DNA from: a virus
Virus record (IMG/VR): IMGVR_UViG_3300030328_002122
Location: 81,195 to 145,194 of that record
Reading direction: 5' to 3' (one strand)
DNA length: 64,000 nucleotides
The notes below the pieces were generated by a model. It was not told the origin of the DNA, did no database searches, and saw nothing but the letters and a program-made list of their open reading frames with translations. Positions 29,319 through 59,861 of this stretch are shown here, piece after piece; the stretch's first letter is position 1; the number at the start of each line of letters is the position of its first letter. The position numbers and the translations under genes were made by a program.

Positions 29319-29354
29319 TTGACTCCATATGCAAAAAATGTTAATATGATTCGT
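29319..29354 (+). promoter_or_regulatory. Sigma70 promoter with TGATTCGT element at the start site
   Basis: TTGACT at 29319-29324, a 17-base spacer, TAATAT at 29342-29347, then TGATTCGT at 29347-29354, sharing the last base of the -10 box. The leader continues AAACAGAGAGAAAGG. Same architecture as 51241, 58728 and 58985. Confidence 0.75.
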
Positions 29355-29377
29355 AAACAGAGAGAAAGGTATTAATA

Positions 29378-29674
29378 ATGATTTCATATTTGAGTTGTAG
29401 CGAAGGTAAATTAGATTTGCATCATTATGAAAATGGTAACCATGAGATTGTTTGTTCTTCAAACAATGTTAATGAACTTGCAAATTGTCTTGCAAACTAT
29501 GGTTTTGGGGAGTTCTTCAGAACTTCTTCTTCATTAGACTTTGCAGATGAGTATGGGTTTGAAACAATGGATGGTGCTCATGATCTTTTAGAAGCTGCTT
29601 GTATTGAAGCATACAAGATTATTGAGATACATGAAGAATATGAGAAAGGTTTAACTCCTAATTATTTATTATAA
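29378..29674 (+). CDS. Hypothetical protein
   Basis: 98 residues (MISYLSCSEGKLDLHHYENG...), acidic, with no membrane segment or recognised motif. First gene after the terminator and under the TGATTCGT promoter; SD AGAAAGG. It shares this promoter type with other short unknown genes, which hints at an early takeover role. Function unknown. Confidence 0.65.
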   Translation: MISYLSCSEGKLDLHHYENGNHEIVCSSNNVNELANCLANYGFGEFFRTSSSLDFADEYGFETMDGAHDLLEAACIEAYKIIEIHEEYEKGLTPNYLL

Positions 29675-29677
29675 ATA
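29670..29677 (+). promoter_or_regulatory. T4-type late promoter box before the bS21 gene
   Basis: TATAAATA overlaps the previous stop and ends five bases before the ATG at 29683. With T4 late spacing the start would fall on or beside that ATG, giving a leaderless mRNA. Confidence 0.6.
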
Positions 29678-29682
29678 CTAGT

Positions 29683-29928
29683 ATGAAATATAAAAAGAAA
29701 TCATATAAGTCAGATGAACTTAAAGGTTTGTCGGTATCTGTTCGTAACAATGATGTAAATGGTGCATTGCGTGTTCTTAGAAAACGTCTTGTCAAAGATG
29801 GTATTATTCAAGAATTACGTGAAAAAACTTACTTTCAATCTAGGGGTGAGAAACGTAGGAAAGAAAAGGCAGCTGCAATACGCAGATATAAACGTAAATT
29901 GCAGAAAGAATTAGAAGAGAGATTATAA
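29683..29928 (+). CDS. rpsU: Ribosomal protein bS21
   Basis: 81 residues. LSVSVRNNDVNGALRVLRKR followed by EKTYFQSRGEKRRKEKAAAI matches bacterial S21, which sits near the 3' end of 16S rRNA and helps mRNA binding at initiation. Phage S21 genes are known, including in pelagiphage HTVC008M as I recall. It could replace the host subunit and bias ribosomes toward phage messages. The ATG has no purine-rich SD upstream (TATAAATACTAGT), which is striking for a protein that works at the SD-anti-SD site. Confidence 0.9.
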   Translation: MKYKKKSYKSDELKGLSVSVRNNDVNGALRVLRKRLVKDGIIQELREKTYFQSRGEKRRKEKAAAIRRYKRKLQKELEERL

Positions 29929-29939
29929 GAGAGGTTATA

Positions 29940-30326
29940 ATGAATACTGTGAAAAAAATTAAGAGAAAAAGAAAACCAATGTCAGTTGAACAAAGGTTAG
30001 CCGCAACCGAAAGACTTGCAATTGCAAGGGAGAAAAGGTTGAAAGAAAATCCACCACAATATAAGAATATATGTCCAGAGGTTTTATCTAAACCAGATGA
30101 CTACGCTTTTTCCTTAAAGAAAGTGCGTCAATGGATTAAGACTCAGAAAGAGTTACTTACAGTTGAGAGAAAAGCTGTAAGAGATAATATTAAAGGTGCG
30201 ATTGCAAGAGCTGCTAGTCATGAAGGTTATATTAGACATTGTGAATACTATCTTAAACATGGTGATTGGTGTGATGATTTCTATGGTGAATATCAAGAGA
30301 AGAGAGTAAGATGGAAAAGTCTATAA
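29940..30326 (+). CDS. Conserved basic phage protein
   Basis: 128 residues starting with a Lys/Arg-rich stretch (KKIKRKRKPMSVEQRLAATE) followed by helices (REKRLKENPPQYKN) and a C-terminal segment with His/Cys/Trp (YIRHCEYYLKHGDWCDDFYG). I recall similar proteins in T4-like cyanophages near replication genes. It may bind nucleic acid or the ribosome given its charge and place after bS21; this is inference. Confidence 0.65.
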   Translation: MNTVKKIKRKRKPMSVEQRLAATERLAIAREKRLKENPPQYKNICPEVLSKPDDYAFSLKKVRQWIKTQKELLTVERKAVRDNIKGAIARAASHEGYIRHCEYYLKHGDWCDDFYGEYQEKRVRWKSL

Positions 30327-30547
30327 AAAGAGTAGAGTTTGAAGAAGCTCATGCAGATATTGTAAAACTAGTTGAAGAACTAGTTACAAAAAAGAATATT
30401 AGTTTATTACAAATTGCAGGGATAATGCAAGCAACAGCAACACGTATATATAAAGAAGTGTTGTCTGAAGATGAGTTTATAAGTTTGATGGCTATGGTAG
30501 TAGATCAATCAACTGAACTAGGAGCAGAGAAAGAAACACTACACTAG
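30311..30547 (+). CDS. Small conserved phage protein
   Basis: 78 residues, helical, overlapping the previous gene by 16 bases. It contains VKLVEELVTKKNISLLQIAG and ATATRIYKEVLSEDEF. No recognised domain. Conserved context between the basic protein and RNase H suggests a replication-linked accessory. Function unknown. Confidence 0.6.
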   Translation: MEKSIKRVEFEEAHADIVKLVEELVTKKNISLLQIAGIMQATATRIYKEVLSEDEFISLMAMVVDQSTELGAEKETLH

Positions 30548-30556
30548 GAATGTATT

Positions 30557-31423
30557 ATGATATTAGTTGATATGAATCAAGTAACCATTAGTAATCTTAT
30601 GATGCAAATTGGTTCTAAAAGACAAAATGATGTAGATGAGAACCTTGTTAGACACATGGTTCTTAACTCTTTAAGAATGTATAGATCTAGATTCTTTGAA
30701 AAATTCGGAGAACTGATATTATGTTATGATAACAAAAGATATTGGAGAAGGGATTATTTTCCAAATTATAAATGTAATCGGAGAAAAGATAGAGCTAACT
30801 CTAATCTAGATTGGAATTTAATATTTGAAACATTAAATACTATTCGTGACGAAATTAGAGAAATCTTTCCATATAAAGTAATAGAAGTTGATGGTGCAGA
30901 AGCAGATGATTGTATTGCGACTATCTGTATGCATATTAACCAAACACCAAATGAATATGAGAAAGTATTGATATTATCAAGTGATAAAGACTTTATACAA
31001 TTACAAAAATATAACTTTGTTACACAGTATAGCCCCGTAAACAAGAAGTTTATCAATGGTATTGATCCCTACCTATATATAAAAGAACATATATTAGTAG
31101 GAGATAGAAGCGATAGTATTCCGAATATCTTATCACCAGATAATACTTTTGTTGATGGATTAAGACAGAAACCTTTCAGTAAAAAAAGAAAAGATTCAAT
31201 TCTTATGTCCAAACAAGAACCAGAAGATTTTTGTAATGCAGAACAATTAAGAAACTATCAAAGAAATAAAACTTTAATTGATTTAGAATGTATTCCAAAA
31301 GATGTGAAAAGAGAAATAATGATTGAGTATCGTAAATCACCAAAAGGTGAAAGATCTAATCTACTAAATTATTTTATACAAAAAAGATTGAAAAATCTTA
31401 TGAATGATATTGGAGATTTTTAG
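30557..31423 (+). CDS. rnh: RNase H / 5'-3' exonuclease (T4 Rnh, FEN-1 family)
   Basis: 288 residues of the 5'-nuclease family. Acidic metal-binding motifs are visible: ILVDMNQ at the start, LCYDNKRYWR, DGAEADDCIA and SSDKDFIQL. It removes RNA primers and adjacent DNA during lagging-strand maturation, working with gp32 and the polymerase in T4. Length is close to T4 Rnh (305). SD is AGGAATG. High confidence in family and role. Confidence 0.9.
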   Translation: MILVDMNQVTISNLMMQIGSKRQNDVDENLVRHMVLNSLRMYRSRFFEKFGELILCYDNKRYWRRDYFPNYKCNRRKDRANSNLDWNLIFETLNTIRDEIREIFPYKVIEVDGAEADDCIATICMHINQTPNEYEKVLILSSDKDFIQLQKYNFVTQYSPVNKKFINGIDPYLYIKEHILVGDRSDSIPNILSPDNTFVDGLRQKPFSKKRKDSILMSKQEPEDFCNAEQLRNYQRNKTLIDLECIPKDVKREIMIEYRKSPKGERSNLLNYFIQKRLKNLMNDIGDF

Positions 31424-31424
31424 T

Positions 31425-31880
31425 ATGGCTATGAAAACATATACACCACTACTTTCTGAAGTTTTGAAGAAAGTAAACAATGCAAAAACAAAAGATAAAA
31501 AGGTTGCAGTTCTCAAAGAACATGATACTCAACCATTAAGAATAATAATAAAAGGTTCTTTTGATCCTAAAATTGTATGGATGCTTCCAGAAGGTAATGT
31601 TCCATATAAACCTAATGAATCAGAAGAAGGAACTGAACATACAGTTCTTGCAAGAGAAGCAAGAAAATTATACCATTATGTTAAGGGTGGTAATGATAGA
31701 TTACCAACAACAAAACGTGAAACTATGTTTATACAATTGCTTGAAGGGTTACATAAATCAGAAGCAGAATTAGTAATCAATGCAAAAGATAAAAAATTAC
31801 ATCAAATATATAAAGGATTATCTGCAGCTGTTGTTAAAGAAGCGTTTAATTGGAACGATAATTTTAATAGGAGAACATAA
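31425..31880 (+). CDS. Conserved T4-like cyanophage-type protein
   Basis: 151 residues from the ATG at 31425, one base after the RNase H stop. It contains YTPLLSEVLKKVNNAKTKDK, GSFDPKIVWMLPEGNVPY and a helical C-terminus. I recall this family in T4-like marine phages beside RNase H, with no known function. A nucleic acid transaction role is possible from context only. Confidence 0.7.
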   Translation: MAMKTYTPLLSEVLKKVNNAKTKDKKVAVLKEHDTQPLRIIIKGSFDPKIVWMLPEGNVPYKPNESEEGTEHTVLAREARKLYHYVKGGNDRLPTTKRETMFIQLLEGLHKSEAELVINAKDKKLHQIYKGLSAAVVKEAFNWNDNFNRRT

Positions 31881-31881
31881 A

Positions 31882-32337
31882 ATGGCATTTAAATTATCAC
31901 AAAGATCACTAGATAAATTAGAAGGCGTTGATGAACGTATGCAAAGAGTTGTCAAGGCTGCAATAGAATTGACTAAAACTGACTTTGGCGTGATTCAAGG
32001 TATGAGAACTGAAGCACAACAAAAAGAACTTGTAGCAAAAGGCGCAAGTCAAACTATGAAAAGTAAACATCTAGAAGGTAAAGCAGTTGACCTCATGGCC
32101 TATGTTGGTTCAAGGGGATCATGGGAACTGAATCTTTATGATGATCTTGCAGATGCAATGAAACAAGCGGCTATCCAAGAAGGTGTACAAGTACGTTGGG
32201 GAGCTGCATGGCAGATTGATGATATGCGAGATTGGGATGGTACAATGGAAGAAGCAATGAACGCATATATTGATTTACGCCGTTCACAAGGCAGACGCCC
32301 ATTTATTGATGGGCCACATTTTGAGTTAATGGATTAA
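31882..32337 (+). CDS. M15-family L-alanyl-D-glutamate / D-Ala peptidase endolysin
   Basis: 151 residues from the ATG at 31882, with SD AGGAGAAC. Zinc ligands of the M15 peptidase fold are visible: His63 and Asp70 in SKHLEGKAVDLMAY and a C-terminal His in GPHFEL, with QGMRT the usual upstream motif. It cleaves peptidoglycan cross-bridge peptides. There is no signal peptide, so it needs a holin such as those proposed near 21.6 kb. It is the likely main endolysin, distinct from the tail-associated M15 domains at 61-64 kb. Confidence 0.88.
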   Translation: MAFKLSQRSLDKLEGVDERMQRVVKAAIELTKTDFGVIQGMRTEAQQKELVAKGASQTMKSKHLEGKAVDLMAYVGSRGSWELNLYDDLADAMKQAAIQEGVQVRWGAAWQIDDMRDWDGTMEEAMNAYIDLRRSQGRRPFIDGPHFELMD

Positions 32338-32375
32338 AAACTATTGACATTTATATTATGATATGATAGTCTAAT

Positions 32376-32468
32376 CCATGTGTCGTGGGATTGTTAGTCC
32401 TCTCTCTCTCACTCTCAAAAATCTAATAACCCACGACAACTGAAAACCCTCTTATGAGGGTTTTTTGT
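32376..32468 (+). ncRNA. Candidate small RNA with long stem, CU-rich loop and terminator
   Basis: No credible ORF. Bases 32381-32397 pair with 32423-32438: nine base pairs (TGTCGTGGG/CCCACGACA) plus seven more after a one-base bulge (TTGTTAG/CTAATAA). The 25-base loop is pyrimidine rich (TCCTCTCTCTCTCACTCTC). A terminator hairpin AAAACCCTC-TTAT-GAGGGTTTT follows at 32443-32468. A TTGACA at 32344 may be its -35, but the -10 is poor. The loop is complementary to the GA-rich ribosome binding leaders of many phage genes. Start point uncertain. Confidence 0.6.
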
Positions 32469-32486
32469 TTTGATAACAAAAAAGTG

Positions 32487-32515
32487 TTGACAAATAAAAC
32501 GAATCAGTATATACT
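32487..32515 (+). promoter_or_regulatory. Sigma70 promoter with CGAATCA element in the spacer
   Basis: TTGACA at 32487-32492, a 17-base spacer holding ACGAATCA (32499-32506), then TATACT at 32510-32515. Reverse complement of the TGATTCGT element of other promoters. It drives the noncoding RNA that follows. Confidence 0.8.
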
Positions 32516-32521
32516 GTAAGT

Positions 32522-32721
32522 ATAGTTAACAAAAGAGGGAGATTAAAACCAATGACATGGGTATAACGAGGGTAACAGAGTGGGTTACAAGTTTGGTAAA
32601 CTCAAGGGCCTAATACTCTTAAAGAAGTTACTGCATCAAGGGTGGGTGTCCGAAGCTTGATGACAACTGACAAGGACTCAAGAGGGAACTGAAACAATAG
32701 TCGAGTTCCCTCTTTTTTTTA
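32522..32721 (+). ncRNA. Candidate structured noncoding RNA, about 200 nt
   Basis: Lies between a strong promoter and a strong terminator and holds no ORF of meaningful length (ATG ACA TGG GTA then a stop). Visible helices are GTTT/AAAC near 32601-32611, CATCAAG (32634-32640) with CTTGATG (32656-32662), and the terminator AGAGGGAACT/AGTTCCCTCT at 32681-32714 followed by T8. GTCC in the second hairpin loop (32648-32651) can pair with GGAC at 32674-32677, a possible pseudoknot. It matches no RNA class that I recognise. The leader GTATAGTTAAC is shared with promoters at 32723 and 59833. Confidence 0.6.
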
Positions 32722-32722
32722 C

Positions 32723-32751
32723 TTGACAAATAAAACGAATCAGTGTATAAT
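32723..32751 (+). promoter_or_regulatory. Sigma70 promoter with CGAATCA element in the spacer
   Basis: TTGACA at 32723-32728, 17-base spacer with ACGAATCA at 32735-32742, TATAAT at 32746-32751. The following leader ATAGGTATAGTTAATAAGAG is nearly identical to that at 59862. Confidence 0.82.
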
Positions 32752-32784
32752 ATAGGTATAGTTAATAAGAGAGAGATGTATAAA

Positions 32785-32967
32785 ATGGATATTGCAGTTT
32801 TACAAGACAACATGATTTTCTTTACTGATTTGTTAAATAAATTAGAAAAGAAGAAAAAGAAAACGCCTGGAAATGGTTTTGCAATAATGAAATGCAAAGA
32901 AAAGATTGCAGAAATTAATCTTATCTTTGATAAAATTAATTATAATTCACAAATTACATACGACTAA
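32785..32967 (+). CDS. Hypothetical helical protein
   Basis: 60 residues from the ATG at 32785, chosen because the promoter -10 ends at 32751 and SD GAGAGAG sits 9-10 bases upstream; the ATG at 32776 lies too close to that SD. Sequence is helical and Lys-rich (LLNKLEKKKKKTPGNGF). It overlaps the following metallopeptidase gene by one base. Function unknown. Confidence 0.6.
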   Translation: MDIAVLQDNMIFFTDLLNKLEKKKKKTPGNGFAIMKCKEKIAEINLIFDKINYNSQITYD

Positions 32968-33389
32968 TGTATATAGAATTTTCAAAAACAAATAAGAAAC
33001 AACAACGAATCATTGAGGATGCTCTCTGGTTCGCAAAGGCATATCTATTACCTAAACATAAGATTGATGAGATTCATGTTGAGTCTGTAAAAAAATGGAA
33101 TTATAGAGATGGTGATTGTTATGATACAGATGATAGATCCTATCATATAAGAGTTAGAAAGAATATGTCAGAAGATGTTTTGATTAAAACAATCTTTCAT
33201 GAATTTGCTCATATTAAACAATCAATCAAAAAAGAATTTGGTGATATTTTTGGAATTTTGAGTGATGATGCATCATGGATTTCTTATGATGATAGACCTT
33301 ATGAAATGGATGCTTTTAAATTAGAAAATGAAATGTTCGATAAGTATGCTAAAGATGGAAAATTTAAATTTTCTATAGATGATATCTAG
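32967..33389 (+). CDS. Putative zinc metallopeptidase (HExxH)
   Basis: 140 residues. IFHEFAHIKQ provides His78, Glu79 and His82 of an HExxH zinc site; a third ligand may be in YEMDAFKLENEMF. No signal peptide, so it acts in the cytoplasm. The size and DAFxxE pattern are reminiscent of SprT-like or WLM-like peptidases, but I cannot assign the family. Under a TGATTCG-type promoter with a short upstream gene, so probably early. Target unknown. Confidence 0.7.
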   Translation: MYIEFSKTNKKQQRIIEDALWFAKAYLLPKHKIDEIHVESVKKWNYRDGDCYDTDDRSYHIRVRKNMSEDVLIKTIFHEFAHIKQSIKKEFGDIFGILSDDASWISYDDRPYEMDAFKLENEMFDKYAKDGKFKFSIDDI

Positions 33390-33400
33390 AGGAGAGAGTT

Positions 33401-33604
33401 ATGGGAATGTCAAGTTACGTATTAGATTTTGAAGAAAAATTTTGGGATTATGCTCACGAAATTGTTGGTGAATGTGAATGTTATAAAGAATTTTATAATA
33501 AAATGTTTAAATTTGATGATATTACTACAACCTATTCTATTATAACATGGCCGCACAATGAATTAAATATGTTTTGGGATGAATTTTGGGTTGGAAAACA
33601 ATAA
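33401..33604 (+). CDS. Hypothetical protein
   Basis: 67 residues (MGMSSYVLDFEEKFWDYAHE...), rich in aromatic and acidic residues, with SD AGGAGAGAG. No known motif. Co-transcribed with the upstream metallopeptidase. Function unknown. Confidence 0.6.
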   Translation: MGMSSYVLDFEEKFWDYAHEIVGECECYKEFYNKMFKFDDITTTYSIITWPHNELNMFWDEFWVGKQ

Positions 33605-33613
33605 ATACTTGTA

Positions 33614-34048
33614 ATGTTACTTCAAACTGCACTAATATGTATGGCTATGAATGTATATCACGAAGCACGTTCAGAACCTATTGTTGGACAAATTGCTGTC
33701 GCACAAGTTGTTATCAATCGTGTAAATGATAAACGATTTCCAGATACAATTTGTGGAGTTGTTAAGCAAGCAGTTTTAGATAGTAATGGTTTACCTAAAA
33801 AAAATATGTGTCATTTTAGTTGGTACTGTGATGGTGCAGACGATATGCCGAATACAGAAAGTAAATCATGGGAAACTTCTTTGATGGTTGCAAAGACAGT
33901 AATATCTGGAAAGACAGAAGAACTTGTAAGTAATGCAACACATTATCATGCAACTTCTGTTTTTCCATATTGGGCTAAGAATAAAAAATATAAAAGAATT
34001 GCAAAGATTGATAGTCATATATTTTATAGATGGGAGAACAGAAAATGA
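33614..34048 (+). CDS. Cell wall hydrolase, SleB family
   Basis: 144 residues matching the SleB/Hydrolase_2 catalytic domain: AMNVYHEARSEPIVGQIAVA with the catalytic Glu, VVINRVNDKRFPDTICGVVK, CHFSWYCDGADD, ATHYHATSVFPYWA and HIFYR. SleB enzymes are lytic transglycosylases or amidases acting on peptidoglycan. No clear signal peptide, though the first 12 residues are hydrophobic. A late-like box (AATAAATA) ends six bases before the ATG. It is a second soluble muralytic enzyme besides the M15 endolysin, perhaps for lysis or virion entry. Confidence 0.85.
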   Translation: MLLQTALICMAMNVYHEARSEPIVGQIAVAQVVINRVNDKRFPDTICGVVKQAVLDSNGLPKKNMCHFSWYCDGADDMPNTESKSWETSLMVAKTVISGKTEELVSNATHYHATSVFPYWAKNKKYKRIAKIDSHIFYRWENRK

Positions 34049-34206
34049 AGTTTGATGAGCGGATATCTTTAAGACAAGAAAATGCAGAATTGAGGCAAGA
34101 AATAAAAATGTTAAAAGAAGAAATTGCATCAATGAATAAGGAAAAATACGGACTCCTAAATAGAATAAAAGAGTTAAGTGATTTAAGAGAAGCGATAATT
34201 AGATAA
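34045..34206 (+). CDS. Small coiled-coil protein
   Basis: 53 residues, MKFDERISLRQENAELRQEI and onward, an almost perfect coiled coil (EIKMLKEEIASMNKEKYGLL). It overlaps the SleB gene stop (ATGA) and the next start (TAATG), so it is embedded in a coupled operon. Function unknown. Confidence 0.65.
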   Translation: MKFDERISLRQENAELRQEIKMLKEEIASMNKEKYGLLNRIKELSDLREAIIR

Positions 34207-34517
34207 TGCCTACATTTAGATTTATGAATAATGAAACTGGCGAACAGTTTGATGACTTTTTGTCAAATTCTAAAAGAGAAGATCTTTTAGAAAAAAATCC
34301 ACACATAACACAAGTACCTACGCCATTTGCAATTGTATCTACAGTTGCAACGACAGTAGATAGTAAAACTGATGATGGTTTTAAAGAAGTGTTACAGAAG
34401 ATTGGTGAAAATCACCCAGGCAGTGAAATAGACGAAAGATACAATAGAAGAAGTGTAAAACAATCACAGACAAAACGAGTGATTGATAAACACAGAAGTA
34501 AATGGAAAGTTAGTTAA
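34206..34517 (+). CDS. Conserved T4-like phage protein (FmdB-like, without Cys)
   Basis: 103 residues. The start MPTFRFMNNETGEQFDDFLS resembles the FmdB zinc-ribbon N-terminus, but no cysteines remain. The C-terminal part (DDGFKEVLQKIGENHPGSEI, RSVKQSQTKRVIDKHR) is conserved in T4-like cyanophages beside phoH. Function unknown; it overlaps phoH by one base. Confidence 0.7.
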   Translation: MPTFRFMNNETGEQFDDFLSNSKREDLLEKNPHITQVPTPFAIVSTVATTVDSKTDDGFKEVLQKIGENHPGSEIDERYNRRSVKQSQTKRVIDKHRSKWKVS

Positions 34518-36365: not shown

Positions 36366-36678
36366 TATCTATAGTGTAAATGCACAACCCACTACTGGTT
36401 GGGTAATGAAACCAACTCAATGTGGTAATGCAGATGTTGTTATAGAAGGTCTGAAATCAGCAGGAGAAGATCCTTTTGTTTGGATGAATGGTCGTTCTAT
36501 GAGTGTAGAAGGTATATTTCTAGATACCAGATTTGTTTTAGCTATGAACACAAAAACACTTGATTGGACTCTTTTAGAGTTTACTAGAGATAATAAATTT
36601 GCGTGTGTACTAGGATCTGGTAATGGAACAATTAATATGAATACAGAAATAAATAAGAAAAAAGGTGTTGACTTATAA
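36322..36678 (+). CDS. Secreted hypothetical protein
   Basis: 118 residues with a signal peptide (MQKIILIITFLLTLNIYSVN, cleavage about AQ). The mature part has two Cys (QCGNADVV, FACVLG) that could form a disulfide and a beta-rich pattern (WTLLEFTRDNKFACVLGSG). It overlaps the exonuclease gene by 44 bases. Similar small secreted proteins are frequent in marine phages; a periplasmic role such as exclusion is speculative. Confidence 0.6.
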   Translation: MQKIILIITFLLTLNIYSVNAQPTTGWVMKPTQCGNADVVIEGLKSAGEDPFVWMNGRSMSVEGIFLDTRFVLAMNTKTLDWTLLEFTRDNKFACVLGSGNGTINMNTEINKKKGVDL

Positions 36679-36698
36679 TATTCTATATGTTATAAATA
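36668..36698 (+). promoter_or_regulatory. Hybrid early/late promoter for the tmRNA
   Basis: TTGACT at 36668-36673 with a 17-base spacer leads to TATAAATA at 36691-36698, which is at once a sigma70 -10 box (TATAAA) and the T4 late consensus. It sits inside the end of the secreted-protein gene. The same design occurs at gp32 (39441). Confidence 0.65.
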
Positions 36699-36703
36699 AG
36701 GTA

Positions 36704-37100
36704 CAGTTTGTTGATACGAATTGATGTTTGGATAGGACTTGGGGGCAGTACCCAACGCCTCCACCATAGACACACTAGGTTTTGGTATATCAATTGATAT
36801 ATAACCATACCTTTGTACACAATGGTTAACATCATCTGATCGGAAGGTAGGATCAGCTAGTGTGTCTTTGATGGGGGCGAAATAGGATCGACTAACAAAT
36901 GAATATGAGAGTAGAACTGTCGCATGACCTCGTTATCGGTCAAAACAAATAAGTGCAAACAATAATTTTGCGCCTGTAGATTTCGCCATAGCGGCTTAAT
37001 CGTACTGAGTTTTGGTGGTGTACTTGGAAACAGAAACACCACTACATGAATAGGGTCACTACTTAATAGGTGCGTGTGGAGTCATGGTTAACTCCATTTC
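36704..37100 (+). ncRNA. ssrA: Circularly permuted two-piece tmRNA gene
   Basis: The acceptor piece comes first: T-arm TTGGG-GGCAGTA-CCCAA (36739-36755), acceptor strand CGCCTCC (36756-36762), A, CCA (36764-36766). About 105 bases later the 5' piece starts with GGGGGCG (36873-36879), which pairs with CGCCTCC, then AAATAGGATCGAC as in tmRNA D-like arms. The tag frame starts at resume codon GCA (36955) and reads ANNNFAPVDFAIAA with stop at 36997-36999. A GTGGTGT/ACACCAC helix follows, and a hairpin at 37077-37096. This order is the permuted form known from Alphaproteobacteria. It should rescue stalled ribosomes and tag products for proteolysis. Outer ends approximate. Confidence 0.9.
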
Positions 37101-50481: not shown

Positions 50482-50537
50482 TTGACATTTGTTATGAAAA
50501 CAGGTATATTAATAGTATAGAGAGAAAGGTGATTCGT
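50482..50537 (+). promoter_or_regulatory. Sigma70 promoter with TGATTCGT between SD and ATG
   Basis: TTGACA at 50482-50487, 17-base spacer, TATATT at 50505-50510. Here TGATTCGT (50530-50537) lies in the leader between SD AGAAAGG and the ATG at 50539, the same placement as at 56587. Confidence 0.72.
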
Positions 50538-50704: not shown

Positions 50705-51244
50705 ATGAAAAAAGTAGGAAACGCAACTATTTTATACTTAGACATGGACGGAGTCCTTGCAGATTTCTTTGATGCATTTGCAAAGAAGTTCAATAGAGAT
50801 CATTGGAAAGAGATTCCAAGAAAAGACAAGTCATTACAAGAACTCATAGGTACTGACTTCTTTTACACGCTATCAATATTTGAAAATACCTATAACCTAG
50901 TGAATGTTGTAGACGCTATATCAAAAGGTCAATGGGGAATATGTTCATCACCATTAAAAGGTGATAGGGATAACTCTGCATACCACAAAAGAAGGTGGTT
51001 AGAGGACAATGATTTGATGCCTCCTGCTATTGAGAATGTAATATTCACTGGTCAGAAAGAGCATTATGCAATCAATTCTATTGATGGTTCACCAAACATT
51101 TTGGTTGATGATAAACCTAGTAATATTGAGAAATGGGAAAAAGCTGGTGGAATAGGTTTTCTATACCAAGCAAATAAAGACTCCTATGCAGACTTGGTTA
51201 AAAACATCAATATGGTTTATTCACATGGTCAATATAGGACTTGA
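50705..51244 (+). CDS. 5'(3')-deoxyribonucleotidase-like HAD phosphatase
   Basis: 179 residues from the ATG at 50705. HAD motif I is YLDMDGVLADFFDAF (nucleophile and general acid Asp), SSPLKGD fits motif II and ILVDDKPSNIEKW motif IV; AYHKRRWLEDN carries the motif III Lys/Arg region. This is the NT5C-like family that dephosphorylates deoxynucleoside monophosphates. It may recycle host DNA nucleotides or balance pools with NrdJ and ThyX. High confidence for HAD; substrate inferred. Confidence 0.85.
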   Translation: MKKVGNATILYLDMDGVLADFFDAFAKKFNRDHWKEIPRKDKSLQELIGTDFFYTLSIFENTYNLVNVVDAISKGQWGICSSPLKGDRDNSAYHKRRWLEDNDLMPPAIENVIFTGQKEHYAINSIDGSPNILVDDKPSNIEKWEKAGGIGFLYQANKDSYADLVKNINMVYSHGQYRT

Positions 51245-51276
51245 CACGAAACAATATATATGGTATAGTGATTCGT
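51241..51276 (+). promoter_or_regulatory. Sigma70 promoter with TGATTCGT at the start site
   Basis: TTGACA (51241-51246) overlaps the nucleotidase stop; 17-base spacer, TATAGT at 51264-51269, TGATTCGT at 51269-51276. The leader has AATAGAGAGG. It drives a long operon of small genes extending toward 56 kb. Confidence 0.8.
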
Positions 51277-51292: not shown

Positions 51293-51514
51293 ATGTCTAA
51301 ACAATTTCCAAGAATGTCATTAGCGTCAAGAAATCTTGCACTAAAGACAATCCAAAATTTAAGTCCTATTGAATTAGAAAATATGGCTGCAGATCTTGTA
51401 AAAGTAAGTCCATACATTGCATTACGATTAGAGTTTGCACTTGGGTCATCTTTACAAGATTATGAAGATGAATTAGCAATTGAAGATTTTGATAATAACA
51501 AGGAGAATATATAA
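51293..51514 (+). CDS. Small helical hypothetical protein
   Basis: 73 residues (MSKQFPRMSLASRNLALKTI...) with an acidic tail (YEDELAIEDFDNNKENI). First gene of the operon; SD AGAGAGG. It shares one base with the next gene. Function unknown. Confidence 0.6.
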   Translation: MSKQFPRMSLASRNLALKTIQNLSPIELENMAADLVKVSPYIALRLEFALGSSLQDYEDELAIEDFDNNKENI

Positions 51515-53810: not shown

Positions 53811-53902
53811 TTTGGATAATACTGTATTTCCTTATCATTTTTATAGGAATTATCTGGATGTTAGCTAGTTTAGTGTGGATTGCAATGGACAATGAAGAAT
53901 AA
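53807..53902 (+). CDS. Tiny transmembrane peptide
   Basis: 31 residues, almost entirely hydrophobic (MIWIILYFLIIFIGIIWMLA), with an acidic end (MDNEE). It starts in an ATGA overlap with the previous gene and overlaps the next, so it is likely translated by coupling. Function unknown. Confidence 0.5.
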   Translation: MIWIILYFLIIFIGIIWMLASLVWIAMDNEE

Positions 53903-54963: not shown

Positions 54964-55157
54964 TGAAATACTGTATATTATTAATAGGATTATTATTAAC
55001 AAGTGCGTGTAGTACAAACTATGTAACCAAAGAGGGTCAAAGACTACTAGGAAACACAGCCGCAGGGTGTATATTAGGTGAAGTTGCATTTGGTAAATGT
55101 GAAGAAGGTGCAGCCATTGGTGCATTTACAACAGTAATAACAGACCAAAAGAGGTAG
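54960..55157 (+). CDS. Small lipoprotein-like protein
   Basis: 65 residues. A hydrophobic start (MMKYCILLIGLLLTSACSTN) with Cys17 in an imperfect lipobox (TSAC), followed by GNTAAGCILGEVAFGKCEEG, rich in Gly and Ala. Resembles small phage lipoproteins of the host envelope. A superinfection-exclusion role is possible but unproven. Confidence 0.6.
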   Translation: MMKYCILLIGLLLTSACSTNYVTKEGQRLLGNTAAGCILGEVAFGKCEEGAAIGAFTTVITDQKR

Positions 55158-55158
55158 T

Positions 55159-55389
55159 ATGACATTTCAAGTAAATAAAATACATAAGTTACAAGACCAA
55201 ATAGAATCACTCACATACGATTGGGTATGGGAAGATATTTCAGAACATTACGGAGTCGAAGAAGTAGAGGAGTTGAATCAAGAACAAATTGATGAAATCA
55301 TGACCTTTGCAGACAGCGATGAGTGTTACGAAGGGTATGTGGGTATGACATTAAGAAGTATATGTGACTCGTGGGATGCAGACTACTAA
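55159..55389 (+). CDS. Acidic hypothetical protein
   Basis: 76 residues, very acidic (EDISEHYGVEEVEELNQEQI), mainly helical. It overlaps the PyrD-like gene by 14 bases. A strongly acidic small phage protein may mimic DNA, but nothing specific supports that. Function unknown. Confidence 0.55.
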   Translation: MTFQVNKIHKLQDQIESLTYDWVWEDISEHYGVEEVEELNQEQIDEIMTFADSDECYEGYVGMTLRSICDSWDADY

Positions 55390-56098
55390 ATTCTTCATAT
55401 CAGCTCCATTCGGTAATTATCTAAAGTTCCAGAACGCAATCAGTGTAACAGGTAGTTGGACAATCGAACCACGACCTGGCTTGATCCCACAAGTTCTGAA
55501 AACATTACGATATGTAAGAGTGAATGGAGTATGGGGTTGGAGAAACAAAATAGGTCTAAGGAACGCTGGTATTCATGAAGGTCTAAGACGTATGACCAAT
55601 TCTTTTGATGTAATGAGTATTGCATCAGTACAGAAATACGATTGGATTAACTTTGATAGTATACTACCAGAACATCAAAACATAGAGGTGAATATCAGCT
55701 GTCCTAACCTAGATAAAGACGAAGATGCAACACAATTCCCACACTTTGATACACTTAACAATGGTAAAAGACAATGGTGCATCTGTAAAGTTCCACCTAC
55801 AATAAAAGAATATAAACTAGACCAAATCATCAACGATTATGGATATACACAAATACACGCAAGTAATACACTCGCTAGTGATAAAGGTGGACTATCTGGT
55901 AAAAGACTTGCACCACATACACTTAGAATACTAGACTATATTAAAAGAAAATACCCTCATATAACAGTAATAACAGGGGGTGGAATAACAGAAAAGTATC
56001 AGACACATATCTATAAAGAAAGAGGTGCAGATCATATCAGTCTAGGAACAGTCTGCTTCACGCCATGGAAAGTAAAGAGGATCATAGATGAAACTTAA
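55376..56098 (+). CDS. Dihydroorotate dehydrogenase-like FMN enzyme
   Basis: 240 residues from the ATG at 55376. The TIM-barrel pattern of PyrD is visible: VNISCPN (105-111, substrate Asn and neighbouring Cys), CKVPPT (137-142), HASNTLASDKGGLSGKRLAP (161-180) and VITGGGI (198-204) with GADHISLGT (218-225) for FMN phosphate. It would oxidise dihydroorotate to orotate. It is shorter at the N-terminus than the usual roughly 310-340 residues, so activity is uncertain. A phosphoribosyltransferase resembling PyrE lies at 57444. Confidence 0.78.
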   Translation: MQTTKFFISAPFGNYLKFQNAISVTGSWTIEPRPGLIPQVLKTLRYVRVNGVWGWRNKIGLRNAGIHEGLRRMTNSFDVMSIASVQKYDWINFDSILPEHQNIEVNISCPNLDKDEDATQFPHFDTLNNGKRQWCICKVPPTIKEYKLDQIINDYGYTQIHASNTLASDKGGLSGKRLAPHTLRILDYIKRKYPHITVITGGGITEKYQTHIYKERGADHISLGTVCFTPWKVKRIIDET

Positions 56099-56285
56099 TA
56101 AGGATATCATTAACTTCTTAGACACTATAAAGAGAAAGGATATCCATACAGAGATAGATTATATATCACCATTGGTTAAAAAGTATGGAATGAATAAGGA
56201 ACTCGCAGAGAGAATAAGACATGAGTATGTATGCCATGTACTTAAAAAGGCTACTGCGTATGTATCATGGGAAAACATGGAATAA
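56088..56285 (+). CDS. Small helical hypothetical protein
   Basis: 65 residues (MKLNKDIINFLDTIKRKDIH...), overlapping the PyrD-like gene by 11 bases. Entirely helical in appearance with a basic pattern. Last gene of the 51.3-56.3 kb operon. Function unknown. Confidence 0.55.
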   Translation: MKLNKDIINFLDTIKRKDIHTEIDYISPLVKKYGMNKELAERIRHEYVCHVLKKATAYVSWENME

Positions 56286-56404
56286 AATGGGATTTGCGTA
56301 CAATTTAAAAAAAGGTATAAAAAAAGGTAGTTAGGTGTTCTCTTTTGTGCATTAAAGGGTGTATTCTATCACGAAAATTTTTTTTTGTCAAGGGGTTTTT
56401 TCAC

Positions 56405-56447
56405 TTGACAGGGAAAACGAATCAGTATATAGTATAAGTATGATTCG
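56405..56447 (+). promoter_or_regulatory. Sigma70 promoter with CGAATCA in the spacer and TGATTCG downstream
   Basis: TTGACA at 56405-56410, 17-base spacer with ACGAATCA (56417-56424), TATAGT at 56428-56433, then TGATTCG at 56441-56447. The only promoter here with the element in both orientations. The 120 bases before it (56286-56404) hold no gene that I can see. Confidence 0.8.
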
Positions 56448-56520
56448 GTTTTTAACAATAGCAGTGGTCTTATGGTTGGTAATTGTGGGTGCATATGCGG
56501 CCCTATTATTATCAATTTAA
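56440..56520 (+). CDS. Possible 26-residue transmembrane peptide on a leaderless mRNA
   Basis: ATG at 56440, on the predicted transcription start (7 bases after the -10 box). Product MIRFLTIAVVLWLVIVGAYA plus six residues: one basic N-terminal residue and a single membrane helix. The next promoter starts 14 bases after its stop, so the transcript carries little else. It may be a genuine micropeptide or only a short regulatory RNA. Confidence 0.4.
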   Translation: MIRFLTIAVVLWLVIVGAYAALLLSI

Positions 56521-56533
56521 TTACAAATATCTC

Positions 56534-56594
56534 TTGACAAACTCTTGACAAGTTGATATGATGACTATGCTAGGTATGATATAAGGTGATTCGT
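56534..56594 (+). promoter_or_regulatory. Sigma70 promoter with TGATTCGT next to the ATG
   Basis: TTGACA at 56534-56539, 17-base spacer, TATGAT at 56557-56562; a second TTGACA at 56545 has no good -10. TGATTCGT at 56587-56594 lies just before the ATG at 56597, as at 50530. Confidence 0.7.
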
Positions 56595-56596
56595 TT

Positions 56597-56839
56597 ATGA
56601 TAATTTCTAATTGGGATTCAGAGTGTTACATGGGTAGAGATTCGAGTGATTCGGAGTCTATCTATAACACTACAGAGATGCACACAGGGCCAGAGAATAA
56701 GAGAGTTTGTCCTTGTGATTCGTGTCCTCTTTCTCTCCAGTGTATGCAGAACATCACAGAATGTTCTGCATTTCGCAATTGGGCGAGTAAGGGTGATTAT
56801 AATGATAATGATTTAGGTAAGAGATTGAGAGGTTGTTAA
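56597..56839 (+). CDS. Small cysteine-cluster protein
   Basis: 80 residues. The conserved-looking core CPCDSCPLSLQCMQNITEC followed by SAFRNWASKGDY has four or five Cys suited to a metal or Fe-S site and is familiar from short marine phage proteins. Acidic, Ser-rich N-terminus. First gene of its operon. Function unknown. Confidence 0.65.
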   Translation: MIISNWDSECYMGRDSSDSESIYNTTEMHTGPENKRVCPCDSCPLSLQCMQNITECSAFRNWASKGDYNDNDLGKRLRGC

Positions 56840-57114
56840 TGACAAAAGAAACATCTATAGGAGAACTATTACAGTTTGATGAGGCGTTGAAGTCAGACTT
56901 GTTCATACAACAAGCAGAGAATAAGAAACTCTTTGACGAGATGTGTGATAAGAACGATTGGAAGATGCCTTTTAATTGTTCTATACCTACAGAGATGTAT
57001 GCGTCTTATAATGAGGCGTGCATCTGGTTTACTGGTGCAGAGTTAACTGTTATAAACGAATCAGGCGGTGTGTGCTTCTGTGAGTGTGAAGGATATTATA
57101 ACGCAATGGGTTGA
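56839..57114 (+). CDS. Hypothetical protein
   Basis: 91 residues from the ATG at 56839, which overlaps the previous stop. Cys are clustered at the end (GGVCFCECEGYY). Soluble, mixed helix and strand. The next promoter -35 begins over its stop codon. Function unknown. Confidence 0.55.
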   Translation: MTKETSIGELLQFDEALKSDLFIQQAENKKLFDEMCDKNDWKMPFNCSIPTEMYASYNEACIWFTGAELTVINESGGVCFCECEGYYNAMG

Positions 57115-57179
57115 CAAGCACACTATAATATGATATAATATGTGAACTGATTCGGGCCACCCCCTAAAACTGGGAGCCC
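57111..57179 (+). promoter_or_regulatory. Sigma70 promoter, TGATTCGG element and leader hairpin
   Basis: TTGACA at 57111-57116, 17-base spacer, TATAAT at 57134-57139, TGATTCGG at 57148-57155. A GC-rich hairpin (GGGC/GCCC and CCC/GGG, 57154-57179) follows at the start of a roughly 100-base leader before the ATG at 57251; it could protect the mRNA or control translation. Confidence 0.7.
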
Positions 57180-57250
57180 AATCGTAATCTATAAATGCAA
57201 TAAAGATACAGATAAATATTTCAAATTAAATATAAGCTTATGGTGGTTTT

Positions 57251-57460
57251 ATGAATTGTTGGCATTGTAATACAGAGTTAATATGGGGTGGAGATCATGA
57301 TGCAGATGAAGATGAGTTAGAGTTTTCTATCGTTACTAATCTCTCATGTCCGAATGAGCATTGCAGAGCTTCTGTCTTGGTCTATTTACCTAGAGATGAT
57401 ACAGAGGATATGCCTTGGACAGTTCAAGGTGAGGAGAGTCAATATGACACACAGAACTGA
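57251..57460 (+). CDS. Small zinc-ribbon protein
   Basis: 69 residues. CWHC (residues 3-6) and CPNEHC form a zinc ribbon. MNCWHCNTELIWGGDHDADE then FSIVTNLSCP is a conserved pattern in T4-like phages. Acidic C-terminus. It overlaps the phosphoribosyltransferase by 17 bases. Function unknown. Confidence 0.72.
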   Translation: MNCWHCNTELIWGGDHDADEDELEFSIVTNLSCPNEHCRASVLVYLPRDDTEDMPWTVQGEESQYDTQN

Positions 57461-57860
57461 AGCAAAACTATTTGAGTATGGCGACTTCATATCCCACTCT
57501 GGTAATACTCTTAAATTTAAGATAGAGTGTGATGCGTTTGATATTGATGATTGGAATACGATTGCAGATATGATTATGACATTCCAAGATGAACCATTTA
57601 GAACTGTCGAAGGTATTCCTAGAGGTGGTATTCCTCTTGCAGATGCGTTAAGGAGATATGCAACAGGCGATCCCTCTCATCAACCTATGATAGTTGATGA
57701 TGTATTTACTACAGGCAAATCATTCATAGATTACTTAGATGAACATTATTCAAATACATTGATGGCATGGGGTTATAAGTGGGTAGTCTTTGCACGAACA
57801 CCTATACATACAACACCAGCACATAAGTTAGGTGTCAAAGCGTTGTTTACCATGCCATGA
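57444..57860 (+). CDS. Phosphoribosyltransferase, orotate PRTase-like
   Basis: 138 residues from the ATG at 57444 (SD GAGGAGAG). The PRPP-binding motif is IVDDVFTTGKS (83-93), matching the VEDVxTTGGS type. FISHSGNTLKFKIECDAF resembles the substrate strand of PyrE and EGIPRGGIPLADALRR the following loop. Shorter than cellular PyrE (about 200), so it may be a minimal version or use another base. With the PyrD-like protein at 55376 it suggests phage-boosted UMP synthesis. Confidence 0.75.
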   Translation: MTHRTEAKLFEYGDFISHSGNTLKFKIECDAFDIDDWNTIADMIMTFQDEPFRTVEGIPRGGIPLADALRRYATGDPSHQPMIVDDVFTTGKSFIDYLDEHYSNTLMAWGYKWVVFARTPIHTTPAHKLGVKALFTMP

Positions 57861-58378
57861 AATATAAATCAAATATTTCAAAACCATTATTACTATTAGT
57901 CTTTCTCTTTGCAGTACAAGAAATGATTGCAAGAGAATCACATATGTATGAACTGATAGGGTTCATAGAAAACAATAGTGAATATTCTTACACAGGCACA
58001 CCCTTACCCACAGTAAAAGAAATGTCAAATAAGGCTATTTGTGATCAGTTCAAAATGCTTTACCCATGTGACATTGCAGGCTACTATGATTATCGTACCG
58101 ATCTTATTGTTATCGCAACAACACCTACGGGCGGTATGATTGAGGAAAACTTTTACGAAGTGGTATTAATCCATGAGTTAGTACATTACTTGCAGTATCA
58201 TCAAGGGTATTTTAATGTAGTGGAGTGCAAACAACAATTAGAAGCAGATGCGTTTCGTCTGCAAGACGAGTATATAGATCATATGGGATACGATCCAGCA
58301 AACAAAAACAATCCCCTCTTTGCTCTGATGGCAAGTATGTGTAGAGGTGATAACAGAGGTGGTCATGGGAGTATGTAA
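57857..58378 (+). CDS. Exported zinc metalloprotease
   Basis: 173 residues. An N-terminal hydrophobic segment (PLLLLVFLFAVQEMIA) acts as signal or anchor. The zinc motif is HELVHYLQYHQ (His106, Glu107, His110), with a likely third ligand Glu129 in QQLEADAFRLQ, a gluzincin-like pattern. Four Cys (ICDQF, YPCDIAG, VVECKQQ, SMCRGD) could form disulfides, supporting a periplasmic site. It may cleave envelope proteins or weaken the wall. Target unknown. Confidence 0.75.
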   Translation: MKYKSNISKPLLLLVFLFAVQEMIARESHMYELIGFIENNSEYSYTGTPLPTVKEMSNKAICDQFKMLYPCDIAGYYDYRTDLIVIATTPTGGMIEENFYEVVLIHELVHYLQYHQGYFNVVECKQQLEADAFRLQDEYIDHMGYDPANKNNPLFALMASMCRGDNRGGHGSM

Positions 58379-58724
58379 AAAAATGATTCAAAAAATCGGA
58401 AAATGGTTCGGAAGAGTTTGTATAAGTTGGAGTATCTTTGTGAATACTTTGTTTGGTGGAAAGAATAATCAAACTGTGAGTGCAAGACAGTACTTTAGAC
58501 AATTACAGAATAAATGGAATATTTGTTTTTTGATTAATGGTTTCTTCTGGTGGGAAGAAGATCATTGTAAAGACAGCTATAATAAATGGGAAGTGATTAA
58601 TAATGCCATGAAGTATTATGATGAATACAAAGAGAAGTATTCTGTTAATGCGTATGAGTTGGCAGAAGATTATACAGAGGACAAAGATCCTTTGCATGAT
58701 TATTATCGTTTGATGAGTCAGTAA
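58365..58724 (+). CDS. Hypothetical aromatic-rich protein
   Basis: About 119 residues from the ATG at 58365; ATGs at 58347 and 58383 are alternatives. Weakly hydrophobic N-terminal part (WFGRVCISWSIFVNTLFGG) and a Trp/Tyr/acidic C-terminal half (FFWWEEDHCKDSYNKWEVIN). It overlaps the metalloprotease stop. Function unknown. Confidence 0.55.
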   Translation: MGVCKKMIQKIGKWFGRVCISWSIFVNTLFGGKNNQTVSARQYFRQLQNKWNICFLINGFFWWEEDHCKDSYNKWEVINNAMKYYDEYKEKYSVNAYELAEDYTEDKDPLHDYYRLMSQ

Positions 58725-58727
58725 CTC

Positions 58728-58763
58728 TTGACATTGTTATCATAACATGGTATACTGATTCGT
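58728..58763 (+). promoter_or_regulatory. Sigma70 promoter with TGATTCGT at the start site
   Basis: TTGACA at 58728-58733, 17-base spacer ending ACATGG, TATACT at 58751-58756, TGATTCGT at 58756-58763, sharing the last base of the -10 box. Confidence 0.82.
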
Positions 58764-58792
58764 AGTTAACAATAGAGAAGAGTGTATATATT

Positions 58793-58975
58793 ATGAAACT
58801 TACTGATAAGCAATTTAAGGAAATTCAATCTAGAATGAATGAACTTATAGAAATCAAAAAAAATCTACCAGATTTAGTTAATGACTTAGGTTGGGAATTT
58901 GAAAGAATGACTAGCTCTGGTCAAGAAACCTTAAATAAAATATGCAAAATTATTGGTAATCCCCCTTTTAGTTGA
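58793..58975 (+). CDS. Small helical hypothetical protein
   Basis: 60 residues (MKLTDKQFKEIQSRMNELIE...), helical, single gene between two TGATTCGT promoters. Weak SD (AGAAGAG). Function unknown. Confidence 0.6.
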   Translation: MKLTDKQFKEIQSRMNELIEIKKNLPDLVNDLGWEFERMTSSGQETLNKICKIIGNPPFS

Positions 58976-58984
58976 AAAAAAGAC

Positions 58985-59020
58985 TTGACTTTGTTCTCAG
59001 AACATGGTATAGTGATTCGT
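58985..59020 (+). promoter_or_regulatory. Sigma70 promoter with TGATTCGT at the start site
   Basis: TTGACT at 58985-58990, 17-base spacer ending ACATGG, TATAGT at 59008-59013, TGATTCGT at 59013-59020. The leader is GA-rich (CGAGAGAAAGAGAGAG). Confidence 0.82.
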
Positions 59021-59045
59021 AAACGAGAGAAAGAGAGAGAAAATA

Positions 59046-59516
59046 ATGGCATATATTTCAACTGAAGATGTTAGACATATCCGAAACACTTTGAAAAAAG
59101 AACTTCCACAGTATAAATTTTCTGTGGTTCGTGATCATCATTCAAGTGTTTCTGTTTCTATTATGAAAGGCCCTGCCTTCAAAGATTGGAACTATAGGGA
59201 TAGGTGGACTAACGAAATTAAAGTTGGTTCTTTAAATGATGGTGAACATCACCAAATCAATCATCACTACACAGAAGAGTTCTACGGAAAAGAGAATGCA
59301 AAAATCTTAGATAAAATCTATAAGATTATGAAAGTTGCACCTTCTTTGAATGGTGGAAAAGAATGGTATGATGATTCAGATGCCATGACAGATTATTTTG
59401 ATACTGCATACTATATGCATATCGGAGTTGGTAAGTGGGATAAACCTTATGAGGTTGTTGACCATCAGTTGGATTCGTTGGTTGATGCGTGTAAAAATAG
59501 TTTGGAGGCTGCGTAA
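59046..59516 (+). CDS. Conserved-looking hypothetical protein
   Basis: 156 residues. A beta-containing N-terminal half (YKFSVVRDHHSSVSVSIMKG) and a middle with His (GEHHQINHHYTEEF), then AYYMHIGVGKWDKPYEV. It has the look of the LPD29-type phage domain with FxVRxxxxSxxxSI, though I cannot confirm that. Function unknown. Shares one base with the next gene. Confidence 0.65.
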   Translation: MAYISTEDVRHIRNTLKKELPQYKFSVVRDHHSSVSVSIMKGPAFKDWNYRDRWTNEIKVGSLNDGEHHQINHHYTEEFYGKENAKILDKIYKIMKVAPSLNGGKEWYDDSDAMTDYFDTAYYMHIGVGKWDKPYEVVDHQLDSLVDACKNSLEAA

Positions 59517-59824
59517 TGAATTTAGTACATGAGAAATTTAATAATTCTGATTTGAAGCTTCCTATTGAACAGAGAAACATTTATACAACAATGTTTCTGG
59601 ATTATGTATGGGGATTTTACAATCATGTTGATGGTGTCTATCCTATTGATGGGTTGACTAAAGATATGGTAGTCAAAGCAACTAACAAGTATTTAAATAG
59701 ATGTTTAGAAGAAAATAATACTTGCAATTGGGGTGATGGCGATTCCTTAGATAGAGAAAGGGTACGAGATATAATCCTTGACGATAATAATCTAGGACAT
59801 GAAGATTATTTTTCAAGATTTTAA
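59516..59824 (+). CDS. Hypothetical protein
   Basis: 102 residues (MNLVHEKFNNSDLKLPIEQR...), acidic, with a C-terminal segment CNWGDGDSLDRERVRDIILD. Translationally coupled to the previous gene (TAATG). Function unknown. Confidence 0.6.
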   Translation: MNLVHEKFNNSDLKLPIEQRNIYTTMFLDYVWGFYNHVDGVYPIDGLTKDMVVKATNKYLNRCLEENNTCNWGDGDSLDRERVRDIILDDNNLGHEDYFSRF

Positions 59825-59832
59825 TTATTTAC

Positions 59833-59861
59833 TTGACACAGAAAACGAATCAGTATATAAT
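59833..59861 (+). promoter_or_regulatory. Sigma70 promoter with CGAATCA element in the spacer
   Basis: TTGACA at 59833-59838, 17-base spacer with ACGAATCA at 59845-59852, TATAAT at 59856-59861, then a leader nearly identical to that at 32752 (ATAGGTATAGTTAACAAGAG). Confidence 0.85.

Follow-up and report, generated by a model that had tools for sequence, protein, structure and literature searches.

The window analysed here is a stretch of 64,000 bases, bases 81,195-145,194 of a 145,194-base virus record (IMG/VR IMGVR_UViG_3300030328_002122), and its gene set is that of a T4-like myovirus, with baseplate, tail-cap, gp5-like, RNase H and PhoH-like proteins and a late-promoter coactivator. Its nearest named relative in the phage collection, judged by two proteins, is Melnitz, a phage of Methylophilales (OM43), the gp5-like proteins being 51% and the PhoH proteins 77% identical. 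Distributed over the window are sigma70-type promoters that carry the heptamer TGATTCG, or its complement CGAATCA, at fixed distances from their boxes. A sequence-only reading of this DNA had described such promoters and proposed that they tie phage early genes to host methylation; the promoters exist, and the positions given for them were accurate to one or two bases. The element-bearing boxes have the form TTGACA/T-N17-TATAnT with one exception (TAATAT), and we regard it as nearly certain that TGATTCG is a phased element of sigma70 promoters in this marine phage.

In four promoters, here called class A, the element lies in the spacer, always 7 bases after TTGACA and 3 bases before the -10 box (TTGACA-N7-CGAATCA-N3-TATAnT), as had been claimed. 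The first (32487..32515, plus strand, as are all promoters described here) combines TTGACA, CGAATCA at 32500-32506 and TATACT, and appears to drive a short RNA without a clear open reading frame (ORF) that ends near 32716. The second (32723..32751) has perfect -35 and -10 boxes with CGAATCA at 32736-32742 and precedes the ORF 32785-32967. At the third (56405..56433) the spacer copy at 56418-56424 is accompanied by a second copy, TGATTCG at 56441-56447. Both orientations are thus present, as previously noted, with the correction that the second copy overlaps the ATG of a 26-codon ORF (56440-56520); this arrangement recurs in two other loci, L011 and L013, where the spacer copy reads CGAATCG. 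The fourth (59833..59861, CGAATCA at 59846-59852) precedes the ORF 59894-60112, and the element upstream of this gene was kept in all five distinct upstream regions found. The class A copies of the window lie in virtually identical cassettes, each about 60 bases long, and are therefore not mutually independent.

Four further promoters (class B) have the form TTGACA/T-N17-(TATAnT or TAATAT), the final T of the -10 box being the first base of TGATTCG, which again agrees with the earlier description. They lie at 29319..29353 (element at 29347-29353, weak -10 box TAATAT, preceding ORF 29378-29674), 51241..51275 (element at 51269-51275, preceding ORF 51293-51514), 58728..58762 (element at 58756-58762) and 58985..59019 (element at 59013-59019, preceding ORF 59046-59516, phrog_10415). 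The 29319 promoter is kept in L211, the sole relative found for it. One promoter with perfect -35 and -10 boxes (57111..57154) does bear TGATTCG 8 bases past the -10 box, at 57148-57154; the element occupies the same place in L011 and L013 and is one base closer in L034 and L037. Two other promoters, at 50482..50536 and 56534..56593, have TGATTCG between promoter and ATG, at 50530-50536 and 56587-56593. Their place had been given correctly, but both copies overlap a AAGGTGAT Shine-Dalgarno sequence just before the ATG, in the second case that of ORF 56597-56839, and they are for this reason weaker evidence.

The orientation of the element in the window follows its position, CGAATCA in the class A spacers and TGATTCG at or after the -10 box. 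Its centre lies 9.5 bases upstream of the -10 centre in class A and 5.5 bases downstream in class B; by arithmetic on the sequences the two centres are 15 bases apart, their midpoint falling on the first two bases of the -10 box. An extended GANTC site is thereby placed within about 40 bases of the transcription start inferred from the -10 box, as it is in promoters regulated by GcrA and CcrM.

Several of these promoters adjoin further features. An inverted repeat GTT-N5-AAC is found in the spacers of three of them, as GTTATCATAAC at 58736-58746, as GTTCTCAGAAC at 58993-59003, and at 50491-50501. In the corresponding part of the Melnitz genome, 5 of 16 promoters have a spacer repeat of like form without TGATTCG, and it is possible that the repeat acts as an operator separate from TGATTCG. 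At 32340-32730 (plus strand) two tandem stretches without clear ORFs are conserved at 82-97% in L211, L216, L260, L367 and L399; the first ends in a terminator-like hairpin at 32442-32465, and the second, which stands under a class A promoter, ends near 32716 in a hairpin recognized by eye only. Both are candidate small RNAs. A strip at 57155-57212 (plus strand), CCACCCCCTAAAACTGGGAGCCCAATC...TCTATAAATGCAATAAAGAT, follows an element promoter and occurs in altered forms in L018, L021, L034 and L054; it may represent a conserved RNA or a late promoter (TATAAATG). The 26-codon ORF at 56440-56520 (plus strand) is membrane-like by eye, with a similar sequence in L011 and L013, and is possibly leaderless, since its ATG sits where transcription should start.

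TGATTCG occurs 17 times in the window against 3.69 expected (standard deviation 1.87), and none of 100 dinucleotide shuffles reached 17. The excess is confined to 29-64 kb of the window, where 16 copies stand against 2.63 expected (reached in none of 200 shuffles), the first 29 kb having 1 copy against 1.27. The whole record holds 18 copies, that is, one in the remaining 81 kb, and only 2 of the reversed pattern. A maximal-order model built from the window's own 6-mers is less favourable than the shuffles and expects 10.2 copies, and by order-2 z TGATTCG is outranked by 88 heptamers of the window, many of which stem from structural genes with repeats. The count by itself is therefore not distinctive; the placing is. 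According to a hand-listed gene map, 11 of the 17 copies lie in the 4,953 intergenic bases that make up 7.7% of the window (binomial 5e-9). The coding copies, which had been described as few, are indeed a minority, but by the same map they number six (12247, 33006, 56441, 56647, 56716 and 57057). The remaining GANTC contexts are unenriched between genes (12 against 10.7 expected) and GANTC overall is rarer than expected (155 sites in the window against 195), so that the feature consists in intergenic TGATTCG and not in GANTC generally. The depletion would suit an origin of the element as a by-product of restriction-modification, GANTC having been purged except where promoters need these bases otherwise, and about half of the pelagiphages are reported to be GANTC-poor as well (PMC9516812). 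The intergenic enrichment is, however, confined to TGATTCG among the GANTC contexts and the register is fixed, which makes this origin very improbable.

The register was examined in the window and in 79 loci that had been retrieved through a protein and independently of the pattern, near-identical loci being counted repeatedly and identical 60-base stretches once. Within 75 bases downstream of TTGAC, 11 of 21 copies of CGAATCA were found at offset 13, and 12 of 31 copies of TGATTCG at offset 28, followed by 9 at offsets 36-37. The permuted element occurred 7 and 2 times in the same set, without a peak at the element offsets. When exact matches to the pattern were removed from the pattern-fetched loci, 39 of 83 copies of CGAATCA still fell at offsets 11-14. 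Contexts were viewed in 16 of the 79 loci; element promoters were seen in L009, L010, L011, L013, L014, L018, L021, L034 and L037, and the other seven had TGATTCG copies without a clear promoter before them.

In exact pattern scans over 2.9 million viral contigs, class A was matched in at least 119 stretches (a lower bound) and a control of the same composition in 42; for class B the figures were 66 and 28. Of the rows listed, 13 of 80 for class A and 2 of 66 for class B had two or more matches per stretch, compared with 0 of 70 for the control. Class A promoters stood before a Shine-Dalgarno sequence and ATG or GTG in 87 of 109 distinct cases, compared with 10 of 31 for the control (p 1e-6). 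At 35% identity and 60 bits, the 87 gene-start promoter loci fell into 11 groups without a common protein, namely a chain of 74, mainly T4-like, two groups of 3 and 2 loci, and eight loci on their own, of which some may reflect chance. Class A promoters were present in multiple copies in L338 (three), L312 (four), L305 (three), L353 (two) and L339 (two), and L330 has a divergent pair of A and B; L305, L353, L339 and L330 have no protein in common with the window's clade in the pieces compared. Several unrelated phage lineages thus use TGATTCG at the same registers. L330 and roseophage CRP-902 have head proteins with 81% identity, L222 and roseophage CRP-6 have polymerases with 76% identity, and because their nearest relatives are named roseophages these two lineages probably infect Rhodobacteraceae. 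For L338, L339 and L305 the best matches listed among named phages were at 43-50% to phages of other bacteria and are uninformative on the host. A RecA-like protein of L297 is nearest to those of Phosso (70%) and Atu_ph07 (68%), phages that are themselves without element promoters.

Orthologues of the gene at 59046 (phrog_10415) were compared by the DNA upstream of their starts. The element was found in 15 of 34 distinct upstream regions, which is no estimate of frequency, many element-bearing loci having been fetched by pattern. It took the class B form in L010, L229, L233 and L576 and the class A form in L297, L307, L327, L349, L360, L362, L294, L296, L328 and L377, and lay further downstream in L369. 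The other 19 regions, Melnitz included, were without it, and among these L258, L336, L383, L578 and L580 showed by eye no promoter at all. An upstream copy, a copy at the -10 box, a downstream copy or none before one orthologous gene fits a single factor that tolerates both positions. It fits less well with the element being a functionless passenger of a promoter cassette copied inside the genome and passed from phage to phage. Such a cassette does exist, in the roughly 60 bases shared by the class A copies and found also in relatives (blastn of 32480-32730), but classes A and B differ in their spacers and have opposite orientation, the flanks differ among the unrelated lineages, and the promoters of this one gene have A, B or neither; we consider a passenger unlikely.

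Variants of the element were surveyed in 260 distinct TTGAC-N18-TATAnT promoters of the pattern loci, restricted to one mismatch. All 16 in-register variants retained GANTC and 14 of them fit YGAKTCK; in the spacer place they were AGAATCA (5) and CGAATCG (3), in the -10 place TGATTCT (6), TGAATCG (1) and TGACTCG (1). Counted by kind, GANTC was retained in 5 of 5 (p about 0.014 on the assumption of equal chances). No one-mismatch in-register variant occurred among the 74 promoters from the protein-fetched loci.

The sequence-only reading had named a preferred site of GcrA that TGATTCG would fit, and this is borne out by the literature. Activation by Caulobacter GcrA is thought to need methylated GANTC within exactly this extended motif, TGATTCG, or more broadly YGAKTCK, and sites upstream as well as downstream of promoters activate (PMC7987155). 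GcrA binds domain 2 of sigma, and an unstructured linker connects its DNA-binding domain with the sigma-binding one (PMC7403470); cell-cycle promoters with GANTC between -35 and -10 have been described (PMC4287350). CcrM homologues are reported across Alphaproteobacteria, SAR11 included, except for Rickettsiales and Magnetococcales (PMC3973325), and GANTC methylation is reported in Pelagibacter (PMC9516812). We therefore propose that TGATTCG would be read by a host protein positioned at RNA polymerase close to sigma domain 2, which would reach the element upstream or downstream of the -10 box and raise promoter activity. This protein may, with less confidence, be the host's GcrA, in which case the contact would depend on methylation; GcrA is the best candidate as it binds sigma2, has an unstructured linker and is reported to work from sites on either side (PMC7403470, PMC7987155). 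GcrA reading CcrM-methylated TGATTCG is in our view the best single explanation of the element, to which we assign a probability of roughly 0.48. If so, element promoters would work best on methylated DNA and would lose activity as unmethylated phage copies accumulate, tying early transcription to the methylation state of the host. More speculatively, phage DNA copied faster than CcrM can methylate it would let these promoters fade and so provide a replication-coupled step from early to late expression.

On the host side, 16 marine alphaproteobacterial genomes were hand-picked from 80 loci found with the PnrA-like gene of the phage. GcrA was detected in 14 of the 16 genomes, with a model that also matches a Sulfolobus control, and the RAMA domain of CcrM-type enzymes in 11 of 14 genomes from this set. 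Five small marine alphaproteobacterial genomes (G008, G010, G012, G013 and G015) have beside full-length GcrA a second, short open frame of 75-100 codons that matches only the C-terminal, sigma-binding part of the model. The PnrA-like substrate-binding protein itself (27741-29255, plus strand; PF02608) has its best match in an alphaproteobacterial genome, at 64%; a short protein after it resembles by eye part of a Na/Pi cotransporter, and at 29683-29928 (plus strand) the phage encodes ribosomal protein S21 (TIGR00030, 46.5 bits against a cut-off of 29).

A test for ccrM and gcrA in the host, or for a phage methylase, had been suggested in the sequence-only reading. A phage methylase does exist, a beta-class DNA methyltransferase (PF01555, phrog_67) encoded outside the window, at 62,414-63,754 of the record (G000:C1:62414-63754, L196), but at 82 bits against a CcrM cut-off of 830 it was ruled out as CcrM. 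PF01555 was not found in the other eight records searched, among them Melnitz, HTVC008M and a 101-kb element-bearing near relative, and on account of the latter the phage methyltransferase may be dispensable.

A number of observations weigh against an assignment to GcrA. A domain search of the phage record found no protein with GcrA (PF07750) or RAMA (PF18755), and none of the 24 phage records searched contained GcrA. At gene starts, the class B excess in the viral scan (19 of 44, control 5 of 18) did not reach significance (p 0.20). Brevundimonas subvibrioides GcrA is reported to show no preference for TGATTCG (PMC7987155). The class A pattern was found with TGAGTCG in 7 stretches and with TGACTCG in 12, compared with at least 119 with TGATTCG; the former two differ from TGATTCG in composition, so that their counts can be set against each other more safely than against 119. 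Use of both T and G as the middle base, the K of YGAKTCK, was thus not seen; the middle base is nearly fixed as T, and the reader would therefore be stricter than YGAKTCK. On alphaproteobacterial chromosomes, the strict class A pattern occurred in none of 289 genomes, where chance also predicts about none, and the loose pattern gave 4 matches against 2 for the control in 240 genomes, without enrichment. A class A habit across alphaproteobacterial chromosomes was consequently rejected. Known GcrA promoters need not have the class A layout, so this result weighs against a shared architecture and not against GcrA. In 60 stretches (1.1 Mb) from 40 alphaproteobacterial genomes TGATTCG came first among the 32 GANTC contexts in its ratio of intergenic to coding copies, to which we give little weight, as it rests on 11 intergenic copies and ranks 51 of 420 among heptamers of the same composition. 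Seven marine alphaproteobacteria with small genomes, which are probably SAR11-like (one is titled Pelagibacteraceae), had 13 TGATTCG copies in 0.8 Mb, 1 of them intergenic, and HTVC008M, a T4-like SAR11 phage, has no copy in its genome. SAR11 was on both counts rejected as a supporting host.

The named alphaproteobacterial phages add to these points. No class A or B match was found, with loose boxes, in CRP-901, CRP-902, GB2A, RL2RES, Atu_ph07 or Phosso. Roseophage CRP-6 has one loose class B match and five more copies in the last 2.5 kb of its genome, with 9 copies of TGATTCG in all against 6 of the reversed word; the Cronobacter phage GAP32 also has one loose class B match, and a lone match of this kind therefore carries little weight. 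TGATTCG outnumbers the reversed word in the jumbo phages Phosso (98 against 15) and Atu_ph07 (62 against 17), the corresponding figures for three non-alphaproteobacterial jumbo phages being 56 and 34, 34 and 43, and 42 and 24. The contexts in 200 kb of each of Phosso and Atu_ph07 were coding-like by eye, and these two phages were dropped as support.

The strongest competitor is a sequence-specific activator or repressor, encoded by phage or host, that reads TGATTCG regardless of methylation, the GANTC core being incidental. The spacer and the region from -10 to +1 are classical places for operators, the nearly fixed T is more than methylation alone demands, other GANTC contexts are unenriched, several alphaproteobacterial phages and a SAR11 phage are without the element, and three of the same promoters bear a second possible operator in the repeat GTT-N5-AAC. 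Identical registers in phages without a detectable common protein are nevertheless hard to reconcile with a phage-specific repressor, the heptamer stands alone and is not a palindrome, its one-mismatch variants retain GANTC, and it is identical to the GcrA site. We consider such a regulator a serious possibility, with about one chance in three in our judgement, and less probable than GcrA.

The distribution of the element among related phages bears on the GcrA assignment as well. Melnitz-like T4-like OM43 phages and pelagimyophages (PMC9004378) resemble the window phage in gene order, in a two-piece tmRNA and in a promoter family with the spacer repeat. The permuted tmRNA at 36664-37046 (plus strand) is of alphaproteobacterial type (RF01849, 116 bits; tag ANNNFAPVDFAIAA), a kind already described from phages (PMC9004378), and the gene order around it is common to the window and Melnitz; the tag is ANDNYVPVDYALAA in Melnitz, ANFNEYALAA in HTVC008M and short, for example ANDNRLALAA, in the small-genome marine alphaproteobacteria. 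Melnitz differs in that none of its 12 TGATTCG copies lies in a class A or B match. Its promoter of the 59046-gene orthologue resembles that of the window in the -35 box, spacer repeat and start region, yet is without TGATTCG. Related phages that keep the promoters and not the element had been named in the sequence-only reading as evidence against it, and this is what was found for Melnitz and HTVC008M. Absence from Melnitz is also predicted if the element is host-dependent. OM43 is not known to have GcrA or CcrM. A type II methylase is reported from Methylophilales sp. H5P1 (PMC9004378). The proposed wiring of early genes to host methylation and the cell cycle is supported in part. The phased element, its exact match to the GcrA site, the variants that keep GANTC, the recurrence in unrelated phages and the element-free Melnitz speak for it; HTVC008M without a copy, SAR11-like DNA without such use, 240 alphaproteobacterial genomes without class A enrichment, and a phage record without GcrA or RAMA speak against it.

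Compared with known systems, the promoters are most like the GcrA- and CcrM-dependent sigma70 promoters of Caulobacter, with which they have in common the exact TGATTCG with its GANTC core and sites both between -35 and -10 and downstream. They differ in belonging to phage genomes, in their near-consensus boxes and two fixed registers, and in being known from sequence alone. Phage genes dependent on host GcrA, as proposed here, are reported for a prophage-like operon of B. subvibrioides (PMC7987155); that operon is integrated and in its authors' view non-functional, and no phased element is described for it in the portion of that paper considered here. The phiCbK-like Caulobacter phages also engage with the GcrA pathway, but 5 of 6 carry a GcrA homologue of their own (PMC3556154), which none of the 24 records searched here does. 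In the open-access literature, judged by title and start of abstract, no account of GANTC elements in phage promoters was found among the matches listed. A broader proposal, which we put forward as doubtful, is that unrelated marine phages converged on an epigenetic promoter code in which, through a GANTC element at either of two fixed places around the -10 box, a host reader would distinguish methylated parental from unmethylated new DNA, replication would damp the early genes and infection would be tied to the host cell cycle, the element being lost and the promoters kept when a phage moves to a host that lacks such a reader.

Should the reader be GcrA, lytic phages would exploit the cell-cycle methylation system of alphaproteobacteria as a transcription switch, and the two fixed positions around the -10 box would form a natural series for how a sigma2-bound factor activates. 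Even with another reader, an element at the same registers in unrelated marine phages points to a common regulator, one that we did not find described in the open-access literature searched. The element may also serve as a sequence sign for guessing the hosts of uncultured phages.

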